From Actinomycetota bacterium (lineage in GTDB: Bacteria; Actinomycetota; Humimicrobiia; Humimicrobiales; Humimicrobiaceae): 9,508 nt of DNA. The notes under the pieces are model-generated. The model was given only the letters and a program-made list of their open reading frames with translations, was not told the DNA's origin and ran no database searches. Below, piece by piece: positions 3,255-9,508 of the stretch. How positions within the stretch are numbered: position 1 is the first letter of the stretch; every line of letters starts with the position of its first letter. Location of the stretch: NCBI GenBank assembly GCA_023380915.1, contig JAMCSM010000117.1, positions 7,371-16,878 on the forward strand. The letters run 5' to 3'. The translations under genes and the position numbers were made by a program.

Positions 3255-3266
3255 GTGAGCATAAAC

Positions 3267-4193
3267 TTGATAAAATTTGAAGAAAAATACAATTATTATG
3301 GATGGCCGAATTGTTTAAGAATAACAAATAAAGTTATTGAGATAATAGTTACTACAGATGTCGGACCAAGAATTATAAGTTTTGGATTCATAGGAGATAA
3401 AAATCTATTTGGAGAAATTAAAGAAGAAGTGGGAAGGATGGGGGGACTTGAATATAGTGTATATGGAGGAGCTAGACTTTGGCATGCTCCAGAGGAAAAT
3501 CCAAGATGTTATTATCCTGATAATATACCTGTTAAATATATATGGGATGGTAAGACTTTAAAACTCATCCAAGAAACAGAAATTACAACCGGGATTAAAA
3601 AGGAAATATGTTTAACTTTTTTCTCAAATAAAAACTATATTAGAGTTGCACATAGAATTTATAACAAAAATTTATGGGATATTGAATTTGCACCATGGGC
3701 TATTAATATAATGAATTTAGGAGGAATAGCAATAATACCTCAAGAGCCTTATCATACCTGTGAAGAAAAATTAAATCCTGTAAGGCCATTAGTTTTATGG
3801 TCCTATACAGATATGAGTGATCCAAGATGGATTTGGGGGGAAAAATATATTCAAATTAAACAAGATCCTAAAGCCGTTACAAGACAGAAAATTGGTATTC
3901 TTAATACTGCTGGTTGGGCTGCATATTATTTAGATGGATATGTTTTTATTAAAAAGTATAAATATAATCCCAAAGCTATATATCCAGATTTTAATGTTAA
4001 TACTGAAATATATACCGATTCCGAATTATTGGAATTAGAAACTCTTGGTCCTCTTGAAAAAGTAAAACCTGATAACTATGTAGAACATTCTGAGAACTGG
4101 TATTTATTTAAGATAAAATTAAATAGAAGCGAAAAATCAATTGATAAATATTTACTTCCATTAATCGATGAAATAAATAAAAATAAAGTTTAA
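3267..4193 (+). CDS. galactose mutarotase-like (DUF4380-type) carbohydrate-binding protein
   Basis: About 308 residues, with no signal peptide or membrane segment, so cytoplasmic. The beta-rich sequence and landmarks match a conserved family with the aldose-1-epimerase-like sandwich fold: GWPNC near residue 12, VTTDVGPRI (28-36), YGGARLWHAPE (66-76), YYPDN (82-86), then HRIYN, FAPWA and an IPQEP tract. Members are usually annotated only as hypothetical or DUF4380 proteins; a role in binding or interconverting sugar anomers is inferred from the fold. I chose TTG 3267 because AGGAG (3251-3255) lies 11 bases before it. The GTG at 3255, four codons earlier, overlaps that ribosome site. It diverges in strand from the sugar transporter cluster but plausibly serves the same metabolism. 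Confidence 0.65.
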   Translation: MIKFEEKYNYYGWPNCLRITNKVIEIIVTTDVGPRIISFGFIGDKNLFGEIKEEVGRMGGLEYSVYGGARLWHAPEENPRCYYPDNIPVKYIWDGKTLKLIQETEITTGIKKEICLTFFSNKNYIRVAHRIYNKNLWDIEFAPWAINIMNLGGIAIIPQEPYHTCEEKLNPVRPLVLWSYTDMSDPRWIWGEKYIQIKQDPKAVTRQKIGILNTAGWAAYYLDGYVFIKKYKYNPKAIYPDFNVNTEIYTDSELLELETLGPLEKVKPDNYVEHSENWYLFKIKLNRSEKSIDKYLLPLIDEINKNKV

Positions 4194-5779: not shown

Positions 5780-5867
5780 TTTAGTTTCCTTTCTTCCTTA
5801 TTAATGTTCTAAATTTAATATTAATTATATTTTTTATATAAACTGCTTAGAAATTTATATTTAAAGC

Positions 5868-6020
5868 TTATAATATCATTTGCTTACTTTTGGCCTTGAT
5901 CATTTGGTAAAAAGCCCCTCATGTGGAATAGGCATTATTGATCTCATAACCCTTTGCCAAGTGCATTTGATAAAGTTTTTGCTGTCTCAACTGTTTCGAG
6001 AAAATTAAACCTTTTATTTA
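5868..6020 (-). pseudogene. decayed gene fragment between permease and M24 gene, family unknown
   Basis: On the minus strand two adjacent frames have protein-like composition and join at one frameshift. The first runs as FNFLETVETAKTLSNALGKG and then meets TGA. The frame shifted by one base continues GYEINNAYST, a TGA that could derive from a CGA Arg codon, then GAFYQMIKAKSKQMIL and TAA at 5868-5870. No start codon or ribosome site is intact. I do not recognise the family. The position suggests a lost gene of the sugar cluster. It is possible that this is chance coding-like sequence. Confidence 0.4.
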
Positions 6021-6031
6021 CTTGATTTTGG

Positions 6032-6045
6032 AAGTATATATACTT
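6032..6045. promoter_or_regulatory. 14-bp perfect palindrome, possible operator
   Basis: AAGTATATATACTT is its own reverse complement. It lies between the transporter genes and the decayed gene upstream of the M24 gene, a place where a regulator could act. In DNA this AT-rich such palindromes also occur by chance, and no regulator gene is visible. Confidence 0.2.
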
Positions 6046-6172
6046 TTAGATCTTTTCATATATTATGTTATTATGAACAAAATAGATTAATAACTAAAGG
6101 TAAATTGAATTAAAAAACTTTAACCTATATGAATTCTTATCAAATTCTACAATTTGAATGTTTGTTTCTATT

Positions 6173-6286
6173 TTGAAGATCCTACATTCCAGGTAGCTGG
6201 ATTAATGATAAGCACAATCCCGGCTATACTGGTTTATTTAATTTTCCAGAAGTATATTATTAAGGGCATAATGGCAGGATCTTCAA
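6173..6286. repeat. 11-bp inverted repeat bounding a probable inverted/invertible segment in the permease gene
   Basis: TTGAAGATCCT (6173-6183) and AGGATCTTCAA (6276-6286) are exact reverse complements around 92 bases. The plus strand between them encodes the missing C-terminus of the minus-strand MalG-type permease: TFQVAGLMISTIPAIL, a hydrophobic helix, then QKYIIKGIMAG, the usual end of this family. Both arms encode Glu-Asp-Pro in the correct frame, on the minus strand at 6276-6284 and on the plus strand at 6175-6183. Flipping the segment joins ARFIEDP to TFQVAG and ends the protein with MAGSSK and TAG, using bases just outside the left arm. The remaining 6184-6275 contains no independent gene. 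An ATG-started plus-strand frame at 6154-6393 is only this displaced tail plus antisense of the permease. Confidence 0.85.
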
Positions 6287-7004
6287 TAAAACGTGCCATT
6301 AGAGTTGCAAGACCTACCATAACCGTACGGGTTTTCATATCTGTAAGCAGTATCAATGGGGTAAAAAGATCATTCCATGTCACTATAAAGTAAAATATTA
6401 TAACAAGTATTATGGCTGTTCTTCCCATTGGTATTATAATATATCGTACTATATCAAAATATCCGGCCCCATCAAGCTCGGCAGCCTCAATCATTTCATC
6501 CGGTATGCCCCTGAATGTTGCCACCATTAACAGAAGTGCTTCGGGTAAAAACATCCCAAGATAAGTAATTATAACTGACCAATGAGTATTTACCAGATGA
6601 ACTTTGGAATATAACAAATATATTGGTATTATAGTCACCTGAACAGGAATAAACATTGTAGAAACAATTATGAAATATATGACATTGGATCCTTTAAATC
6701 TGAGTTTTGCAAAAGCAAAACTTGCAAATATTCCAAAAAGTAAAATAAAGACAATCGTACCTATTGATATGATCATTGAATTTTTTAATAAATTAAAAAT
6801 TTTAAACTGGCTTACCATGGTTATATAATTATTGAGTTCAAGTTTTGTCGGCAAACTAAAAGGACTTTTAAGATAATCAGGACGAGACTTAAGTGAGTTT
6901 ATAAGCATAAAAATTAATGGATATAAAAATGACACTGCAATCATAAGCAGAACAATAAATATTATAATTCTTACGATCCTGTTTCCTTCTTTATTTATTC
7001 TCAT
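6234..7004 (-). CDS. sugar ABC transporter permease, MalG/CUT1 type, C-terminus replaced by inversion
   Basis: Second inner-membrane permease of the transporter. Helices are visible at about 11-33, 75-99, 107-133, 143-163 and 196-221; the cytoplasmic EAA loop EAAELDGAG (173-181) followed by IIIPMG is the ATPase contact site. In the present orientation the product is 256 residues and diverges from the family after Pro243, ending AIMPLIIYFWKIK. The expected sixth helix and KGIMAG end lie on the opposite strand inside the inverted segment at 6173-6286; restoring it gives 278 residues, the normal family length. The encoded form therefore lacks the last helix and is probably non-functional, unless the segment flips in the population. 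The ATG at 7004 follows the MalF-type stop by seven bases, with GGGAA upstream, so translation is coupled. Confidence 0.9.
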   Translation of the reverse strand: MRINKEGNRIVRIIIFIVLLMIAVSFLYPLIFMLINSLKSRPDYLKSPFSLPTKLELNNYITMVSQFKIFNLLKNSMIISIGTIVFILLFGIFASFAFAKLRFKGSNVIYFIIVSTMFIPVQVTIIPIYLLYSKVHLVNTHWSVIITYLGMFLPEALLLMVATFRGIPDEMIEAAELDGAGYFDIVRYIIIPMGRTAIILVIIFYFIVTWNDLFTPLILLTDMKTRTVMVGLATLMARFIEDPAIMPLIIYFWKIK

Positions 7005-7011
7005 TATCTAT

Positions 7012-7914
7012 TCATTCCCAAACACTAACTCTATTTGAAAAGCGCATTTCCAAAATAGTAAGTATTGAAATTATTATTAATAAAATTACAGCTAATCCGC
7101 TGGCAAAACCAAAATTTGAGCTTGACTGGTAAAACTTCAGATATATCATATAATCAATTGTTGAAGTTTCGTAACCAGGTCCTCCATTTGTAATTACATA
7201 TATAAACGCAAAAACACTTGTAAATGTCCAGACCATTGACATTATTACACTATACTCTATAGTCCGTGAAATCATCGGAACCACTATTTTAAAAGTTCTC
7301 TGCCAGAAATTTGCACCATCAAGCTTTGCTGCTTCAAAAACAGATGGCGGTATCTTTGACATGCCTCCAAGTATTACAATAGCCTGCCAGCCGATTGAGC
7401 ACCATGTCAGAACAAATACCAAAACAAATAATGCGGAAGCACTGTTCCCAAACCATTCAATTGCCAAAAAGTTTAAGCCTATTTTTCGAAGTACCAGATT
7501 GAGAGGGCCATCAAGACCAAATGCAATACGAAATAAAAACCCAATTGTCACAGCGGAAATTACCTGCGGAATATAAACAATTACCCTGAAAAACCGCCAG
7601 CCTAAAACCTCCTCGTATAATAGCACAGCTACTAATAACCCTATTATGATTTGAAGAGGCACACTTATTAGAAGTGCCATATTATTCCTGAGAAGCAGCC
7701 AAAAGGGGCTGTTGGTAAAAATATTTATGTAGTTTGTTAATCCAACCCAATCACTTCGGTATAATCCGTCCCAGTTAGTGAAACTCCTGTAAATAGCTGT
7801 GAGTGTCGGGTATATACGTATAAACAATAAAATTAAAACTACTGGTAAAATTGATAGAATACCTTGAAGTGCTTTAGTCCTTCTAATATTATTATTTTTT
7901 AATGTTTTTTTCAT
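7012..7914 (-). CDS. sugar ABC transporter permease, MalF/CUT1 type
   Basis: First inner-membrane permease, 300 residues, full length. A basic cytoplasmic N-terminus (KKTLKNNNIRRTK) precedes helix 1 (about 17-40). Further helices lie at about 74-100, 108-132, 160-183, 222-242 and 270-290. The EAA loop EAAKLDGANFWQ (194-205) followed by IVVPM is intact, as is TNGGPGYETST (242-252), a recurrent MalF-family feature before the last helix. It should pair with the MalG-type subunit encoded seven bases downstream and with an ATPase not encoded here. The ribosome site before the ATG at 7914 is weak, and a 127-base gap with a stable hairpin separates it from the binding-protein gene upstream in the same transcript. 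Confidence 0.92.
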   Translation of the reverse strand: MKKTLKNNNIRRTKALQGILSILPVVLILLFIRIYPTLTAIYRSFTNWDGLYRSDWVGLTNYINIFTNSPFWLLLRNNMALLISVPLQIIIGLLVAVLLYEEVLGWRFFRVIVYIPQVISAVTIGFLFRIAFGLDGPLNLVLRKIGLNFLAIEWFGNSASALFVLVFVLTWCSIGWQAIVILGGMSKIPPSVFEAAKLDGANFWQRTFKIVVPMISRTIEYSVIMSMVWTFTSVFAFIYVITNGGPGYETSTIDYMIYLKFYQSSSNFGFASGLAVILLIIISILTILEMRFSNRVSVWE

Positions 7915-8041: not shown

Positions 8042-9427
8042 TTATTGCTGTCCTTTGTCCTTATCAATCTGATTTGCCAGATCGGCAGGAGTCATTTTTC
8101 CTGTAAGTAAAAGAGGAAGAAGTTTATTGAAAGCTTCTACTGCCTTTACTGATAGTACACCATCTACCCAGAAAGTAGGTGGATTAGTAGTAGCCCAATT
8201 AAGTAACTTTAAACCAACTGAACCAGGCTTAAGATTAAGATCACTTCCCGTTATGTCCTTTCGGGTTGGTATTTTTACCCCATTAATTTTATAAAATTCC
8301 AATACTTCAGGTTTTGAATTCACAAAAGACAAAAACTTGACAGCCATTTCAATATTTTTAGAATCTTTAGAAACTACAAGAACTTGGCCAGCTCCACCCA
8401 TTTCACCATCTTTAGTAATTGTGGTATCAGATATATTAGGTGGTAATATAACTCCAACATTTTCTTCTCCCAGAGCTTTTTGAGCATCAGCTACATAAGA
8501 TGCAATACTGGGAATCATGGCAGCTTTACCTTGAAGAAATTTATTCAATGAATCTGATGATGTTGCACAATCTTGATTCAAATAACCCTTTGCATAAGTT
8601 TGTTGATATAGATCAATTGCACTCATCAAACCCTTGTCATCAGCAAAATTACTCTTACTCTGATCGCTGGCCATGATTGGGCCTACTCCATCTTGCTGTA
8701 TCCACCAGTAAGCTGCAATCCAAAAGAAATAATATGGATGGCCAAAACCTTCATCCACAACCATTGGAGTATATCCCTTATTCTTAATTATTTTCATATC
8801 ATCTAAATAAGCATCTCTGGTTCTGGGTGGATTATTTTCAAAATCTAATCCACAATCTTGAATAATCTTTTTATTATACATTAAAAAAGCTATTTGATTG
8901 TCTGGTACTGTATATCCTAATATCGGACCATCCTTTTGAAAATCTAGAGTAACATTTTCCCAGCCACTTATATTTGTCAGATCCTCCTTTGGAATATAAT
9001 TATTGAGAGGGGCGATCACATCTTTAGCACCAAATAGAAATTGACCTATCCAAAGATTTGCAATATCAGGAGCGTTTCCTGCGAGGCTTGCAGTTTTAAA
9101 AGCTTGATGTGCCAACCCGGCATCTGCATTTACAGTTAATTCAATAGTAACACCGGGATTCTGAGTTTCAAAACGCTTGATAGCTTGTGAAATATACCAT
9201 TGGTCCTGTGCTTTCTTCTGTTCTTCCGGACCTAAAAAACTATCTGCTCCATTTATCCATAGAGTTAAATTTACAGGTTTTATCTCAGAGCTGCTACTGG
9301 CAGAAGTAGCAGCTGTTGTTTCTCCGGAAGCTGCAGCTGCTGTTGTTTCTCCGGAAACTGCTGTTGTTCCGGCAGTAGCCCCTTTACAACCTGCCCCTGT
9401 AAAAATCAGAGACATTGCAAAAACCAT
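8042..9427 (-). CDS. sugar ABC transporter substrate-binding lipoprotein (family 1), 5' end uncertain
   Basis: Extracytoplasmic sugar-binding protein, 461 residues from the first ATG (9427). It has a hydrophobic signal segment ending TGAGC, with Cys14 as probable lipid-anchor site, an Ala/Thr/Ser/Glu-rich flexible linker (about 15-47), then a family 1 solute-binding fold: LTLWING near 52, a helix with RFETQNPGVTIEL, GNAPDIANLW, YNKKIIQDCGL, FLQGKAAMIP and a C-terminal KAVEAFNKLL region. Many aromatic residues around YYFFWIAAYWW suit a carbohydrate site. From 9427 the signal peptide lacks the usual basic start and no ribosome site is seen. The same frame stays open, hydrophobic and without ATG to the right window edge, so the true start may lie beyond the window or be damaged. 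It heads the transporter operon. Confidence 0.88.
   Translation of the reverse strand: MVFAMSLIFTGAGCKGATAGTTAVSGETTAAAASGETTAATSASSSSEIKPVNLTLWINGADSFLGPEEQKKAQDQWYISQAIKRFETQNPGVTIELTVNADAGLAHQAFKTASLAGNAPDIANLWIGQFLFGAKDVIAPLNNYIPKEDLTNISGWENVTLDFQKDGPILGYTVPDNQIAFLMYNKKIIQDCGLDFENNPPRTRDAYLDDMKIIKNKGYTPMVVDEGFGHPYYFFWIAAYWWIQQDGVGPIMASDQSKSNFADDKGLMSAIDLYQQTYAKGYLNQDCATSSDSLNKFLQGKAAMIPSIASYVADAQKALGEENVGVILPPNISDTTITKDGEMGGAGQVLVVSKDSKNIEMAVKFLSFVNSKPEVLEFYKINGVKIPTRKDITGSDLNLKPGSVGLKLLNWATTNPPTFWVDGVLSVKAVEAFNKLLPLLLTGKMTPADLANQIDKDKGQQ
9312..9372 (-). repeat. 27-bp tandem repeat in the lipoprotein linker
   Basis: GCTGTTGTTTCTCCGGAA occurs at 9312-9329 and again at 9339-9356, and a partial copy (GCTGTTGTTCCGG) begins at 9360; full copies are 27 bases, nine codons, apart. 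On the coding strand each encodes SGETTAA within the spacer behind the lipid-anchor cysteine. Copy-number changes would keep the reading frame and alter only tether length. Confidence 0.7.
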
Positions 9428-9508
9428 TACTAATAACCAGATAAAGAGTATAAAAGCAGAATAGTAAAAGTGCAGAATATTTTGGAAGAAAAAAAAATTG
9501 ACCTGGCA

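Follow-up and report, generated by a model that had tools for sequence, protein, structure and literature searches.

The second permease gene of a sugar ABC operon carries a 114-base segment (6173-6286) that lies backwards relative to the relatives examined, and this segment is bounded by an exact short inverted repeat. The explanation that we prefer, with moderate confidence, is a recent micro-inversion at this repeat, by template switching or fold-back repair. The window, i.e. the whole stretch of 9,508 nucleotides that was analysed, contains the operon on its minus strand, with genes for a binding protein, a first permease and a second, MalG-type permease. The features concerned are as follows.

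6168..6170, minus strand: stop codon TAG that, with the segment flipped, would end a protein of 278 aa (in silico flip)
6173..6183, plus strand: distal arm of the 11-bp inverted repeat, TTGAAGATCCT
6184..6275, plus strand: inverted spacer, backwards with respect to the gene; encodes TFQVAG..., the sixth helix and ...KGIM
6276..6286, minus strand: gene-side arm of the repeat, reading TTGAAGATCCT on this strand
6234..7004, minus strand: truncated MalG-type (BPD_transp_1) permease, 256 aa (ORF, Pfam)
7012..7914, minus strand: partner (first) permease, 300 aa, apparently intact (Pfam, homologues)
8042..9427, minus strand: extracellular solute-binding protein (SBP_bac_8 / SBP_bac_1) (Pfam)

The arms at 6173-6183 and 6276-6286 (TTGAAGATCCT / AGGATCTTCAA) match exactly over 11 bp, as had been claimed from the sequence alone, and are separated by a 92-bp spacer, so that an inverted repeat sits at both breakpoints of the reversed segment. 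The gene-side arm covers codons 241-243 (E-D-P) of the permease together with the final two bases of codon 240, and in the flipped state the complement of the distal arm would supply the codons for the terminal GSSK. As printed, the 256-aa permease ends in ARFIEDPAIMPLIIYFWKIK, and its last 13 residues (AIMPLIIYFWKIK), which follow ARFIEDP, are unlike the family; the early stop and odd tail described in the sequence-only reading are therefore real features of this sequence. Directly downstream of the permease, the plus strand (6175-6285) reads EDPTFQVAGLMISTIPAILVYLIFQKYIIKGIMAGSS, which is the family-type permease end that had been recognised there. When the segment 6173-6286 was flipped by script, the same frame was kept and a protein of 278 aa was obtained, ending in ARFIEDPTFQVAGLMISTIPAILVYLIFQKYIIKGIMAGSSK (KGIMAGSSK) and followed by the stop at 6168-6170, in agreement with the join previously worked out by hand. 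The flip of the repeat-bounded segment thus yields an in-frame alternative coding segment. In the hydropathy profile, residues 244-269 of the flipped form make up a hydrophobic stretch that the printed form does not have, and the C-terminal helix is absent from the permease in the printed orientation. The permease matches Pfam BPD_transp_1 with 51.8 bits (cut-off 26.4). Its substrate is not named here, because the NCBIfam models GlcU, UgpE and MalG match it below their cut-offs; no NCBIfam model reached its cut-off for any of the three operon proteins.

A protein search with the 256-aa permease gave 964 matches, the best 120 of which comprised the protein itself and 119 others. Alignment to MalG homologues, a check proposed with the sequence-only reading, showed that the tail of the flipped form is the family tail, present in 119/119 non-self homologues (best 120 of 964). 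A selected, functional variant of the permease, 256 aa long and with a tail of its own, was considered as well. Its frame is open and its tail is short and hydrophobic, but it does not have the last hydrophobic stretch of the flipped form, which is present as sequence in the same 119 homologues (best 120 of 964), and its tail is no more than the displaced segment read in antisense. The few named sources among the protein matches listed (P0054, P0103 and P0221) point to Anaerolineales or Chloroflexi. We regard such a functional short form as very improbable.

The orientation in related genomes, a further check proposed at the outset, could be answered in part. The ordinary orientation was found in 4/4 close genome relatives (L001/L014, L002/L013, L003/L015 and L021), which are 62-71% identical over the upstream part; none was of the same species. 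The pattern used on these genomes finds canonical tails only and therefore says nothing on other, more distant loci. In the four close relatives the corresponding zones share an inverted match of at most 5-6 bp, versus 11 bp in the window, and L021 reads TATTCTGGAGATCC at the site where the window has TTTATTGAAGATCC.

The window contains one exact inverted repeat of at least 11 bp with a spacer of 30-300 bp. Since 100 dinucleotide shuffles gave a mean of 2.08 such repeats per window (maximum 6), the notion that the repeat itself is remarkable was rejected. At one given pair of breakpoints, an 11-bp match has a chance of about 9e-7 from base composition. This coincidence counts because protein homology fixes both breakpoints independently, and the coincidence of the repeat with both breakpoints is not due to chance. 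As single-stranded DNA, the region folds at -16.2 kcal/mol versus a shuffle mean of -10.04 (sd 2.34, z -2.63), with 1/200 shuffles as good. Inversion at a short inverted repeat is a known kind of event, of which the window offers a further example.

The gene-side arm also differs from the family. Near-invariant positions were defined as those identical in at least 118/119 homologues, which gave 110 permease positions, and 8/110 are broken in the flipped form: 4/87 in residues 1-230, 4/10 in residues 231-243 and none of the 13 in residues 244-278, the inverted segment. The excess in residues 231-243 (4/10 versus 4/100 elsewhere, Fisher p 0.002) concerns an interval that was chosen after seeing the data. 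Glu241, in the gene-side arm, replaces a Gly found in 119/119 homologues, and Ile240, at the same arm, stands where 112/119 have Ser or Thr (both best 120 of 964). Both changes make the gene-side arm match the distal arm; an ending in GSSK, as encoded by the latter, is nothing unusual in the family (e.g. P0002, P0080 and P0095). Gly231, Ala237 and Phe239 are also unusual and lie outside the arm, so that among the four broken positions in 231-243 only Glu241 falls within it. On the minus strand at 6282-6296, permease residues 237-241 read A-R-F-I-E versus a nearly invariant S-R-Y-S/T-G in the family; this divergence adjoins the breakpoint, extends past the 11-bp arm and is accounted for only in part.

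The preferred micro-inversion could have arisen during replication or repair, through a template switch of the polymerase or through annealing of a broken end. The site would be a short, probably imperfect inverted repeat, made up of the EDP codons on one side and, on the other, the end of the permease gene with GSSK and the stop. The 92-bp spacer would then have been copied from the opposite strand, and the gene-side arm would have been made to match the distal arm before the switch back. The product would be a permease of 256 aa that lost its last membrane helix and is presumably inactive, in a sugar ABC operon that otherwise appears intact. The same repeat would permit rare back-flips by the same route. 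We infer this mechanism, and likewise the imperfect ancestral repeat, the recent date of the event and the loss of function. As to the ancestral repeat, this amounts to a guess, because the zones of the relatives hold only an inverted match of 5-6 bp.

The event looks young, judging from the unbroken near-invariant positions of the inverted segment and from the partner permease, which breaks 3/106 such positions. An intact segment beside a near-intact partner implies that the inversion is either young or often reversed. Decay of the whole operon was considered and rejected, as the partner permease looks intact; it aligns along its full length (100%) with its best homologue, at 82% identity (best 120 of 845).

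In yeast, inversion of spacers by template switching at short inverted repeats has been described for perfect arms of 10-16 bp and spacers of 2-5 bp, with short spacers favoured (PMC8604942, in part). The cases presented there resemble the present one in that a spacer is inverted, coding sequence is hit, one case shows repeat-perfecting arm changes and recurrence is occasional; they differ in that they concern yeast genes and spacers of 2-5 bp, whereas here a bacterium, a 92-bp spacer and a truncated protein are involved. Because the arm changes in the window resemble the homogenisation reported with template switching in that study, they are counted in favour of a micro-inversion, even though arm conversion accompanied only 1/10 of the yeast spacer inversions in the part of PMC8604942 consulted. 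Homogenisation of the arms would here be judged against a nearest non-self homologue that is 73% identical at the protein level (best 120 of 964). Micro-inversions between human and chimpanzee are likewise pure inversions bounded by short inverted repeats, but measure 17-33 nt and belong to eukaryotic nuclear genomes; for many of them, microhomology-mediated break-induced replication was proposed over template switching (PMC8755829, in part). Small inversions of chloroplast genomes, attributed to hairpins, also involve short inverted repeats, with both orientations among relatives (PMC12371153, PMC6342102, both in part). They differ in size, being typically 4-50 bp in the part consulted of PMC12371153, and the examples in that of PMC6342102 are inversions of 5 and 9 bp with arms of 18-19 bp, in introns.

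Size is thus an argument against the micro-inversion. A spacer of 92 bp is long for a hairpin route, and the published spacers or inversions are shorter (2-5 bp in PMC8604942 and 17-33 nt in PMC8755829, as far as these sources were available). Moreover, a library artefact could equally make the arms agree.

The sequence-only reading had proposed a reversible intragenic inverton, in which the segment flips in the population and gives a complete or a truncated permease, with an invertase encoded elsewhere or none at all. In its favour, the arms are exact, the flip stays in frame and gives a complete product, and both the inverted segment and the partner permease are conserved. We nevertheless consider it rather unlikely. 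The second orientation was not found, which is weak evidence because nothing from the same species turned up in the searches. Neither the permease matches listed (best 120 of 964) nor those of the partner permease (best 120 of 845, best non-self match 82%) include a same-species sequence with the segment the other way round. A search of genome contigs gave 12 loci with a best identity of 67%, and 389 out of 400 genomes of one order had a match, the best being 71% identical; none of the same species was present in either set. One 24-base pattern from the segment had 0 matches in viral contigs, and a plasmid search in near mode with window positions 5800-7100 found none. With the neighbouring peptidase as query, 349 out of 396 genomes of the class had a match, the best-scoring one being 39% identical. 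The window's own protein cluster, P0001, has 2 member sequences on 1 contig, and the second of these may conceivably carry the other orientation. Three further points speak against an inverton: the arm 11-mer has no additional copy in the window, four close genome relatives do not have the repeat, and even the flipped-in protein departs from the family at the arm Gly (119/119 homologues, best 120 of 964). The micro-inversion, which the sequence-only reading had named as an alternative, fits the observations at least as well as a switch does, and accounts better for this Gly-to-Glu change.

A recombinase was searched for in the window. The scan against Pfam covered 8/10 window ORFs of at least 80 aa, the other two being the binding-protein ORF read with an open end and, antisense to that ORF, one of 95 aa (9177-9464). 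None of the 8 scanned ORFs is a recombinase (7 have a Pfam match, and PADLOC finds the remaining one AbiEi-like), so that the earlier statement that no recombinase gene is visible holds for 8 ORFs out of 10. With at most one mismatch allowed, the arm 11-mer is present in the window at the two arms only. This negative result does not exclude an inverton, because PMC12548429, in the part consulted, cites a study (Chanin et al. 2024) with 372 inversion events in Bacteroides thetaiotaomicron, often intragenic and without known recombinases. Such recombinase-free inversions are to be counted in favour of an inverton, and intragenic invertons resemble the present case in that the inversion lies within coding sequence and a known recombinase is not necessary (PMC12548429, same part). 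On balance, a natural inverton in which the C-terminus of one permease would act as the on/off switch of a sugar ABC importer, with no dedicated recombinase, seems to us a doubtful proposition, slightly more so than an inverton in general. The intragenic invertons of Chanin et al. (2024, Nature 634:234) were reportedly called from reads in both orientations, and differ from the present case, for which one orientation only is known. In the literature searched on phase-variable DNA inversion with ABC transporters, Chloroflexi were not named among the matches listed (8 of 12 papers).

The plus strand at 1325-2860 carries adjoining AbiEi-like (224 aa) and AbiEii-like (284 aa) genes. The pair is a type IV toxin-antitoxin system according to PADLOC (both genes) and Pfam (the second gene).

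A library or assembly artefact is another explanation, in which fold-back chimeras at the inverted repeat were assembled instead of a true 278-aa orientation; an assembly problem was also among the alternatives of the sequence-only reading. Chimeras from whole-genome amplification are an alternative source of such an artefact. The other orientation in all 119 homologues (best 120 of 964) counts in favour of an artefact, as does the single contig (16,878 bp) that represents the locus in the protein collection, and homogenised arms would be explained as well. The artefact is a real rival because chimeric reads due to sonication look alike: they invert the sequence between inverted repeats and carry mutations where the arms mismatch, and the corresponding filter takes repeats of at least 8 bp in total (PMC10908179, in part). 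On the other hand, the same part of PMC10908179 describes such reads as low-frequency variant calls, whereas here the chimeras would have to dominate both junctions in order to win the assembly. The operon showed no further damage. An artefact appears to be an improbable source of the printed orientation.

If the micro-inversion is real and fixed, the locus would be a clean bacterial inversion of the 100-bp class, bounded by 11-bp repeat arms that may bear a mark of homogenisation, while the comparison cases are much shorter (PMC8604942, PMC8755829 and the chloroplast examples, as far as covered by the parts consulted). If it is reversible, a nutrient importer of an environmental lineage would join intragenic phase variation. 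Gene callers may log such flips simply as short proteins.

Two other genes of the window deserve mention. Near the sugar ABC operon, the plus strand at 3255-4193 encodes a relative of the TTE1925 mutarotase family, with 316 bits for NCBIfam TTE1925 (below the cut-off of 550) and 31 bits for DUF4380 (cut-off 29.4). On the minus strand at 419-1117, a Matrixin-like metalloprotease with a HELGHAFGLGHS motif is encoded (Pfam Peptidase_M10).
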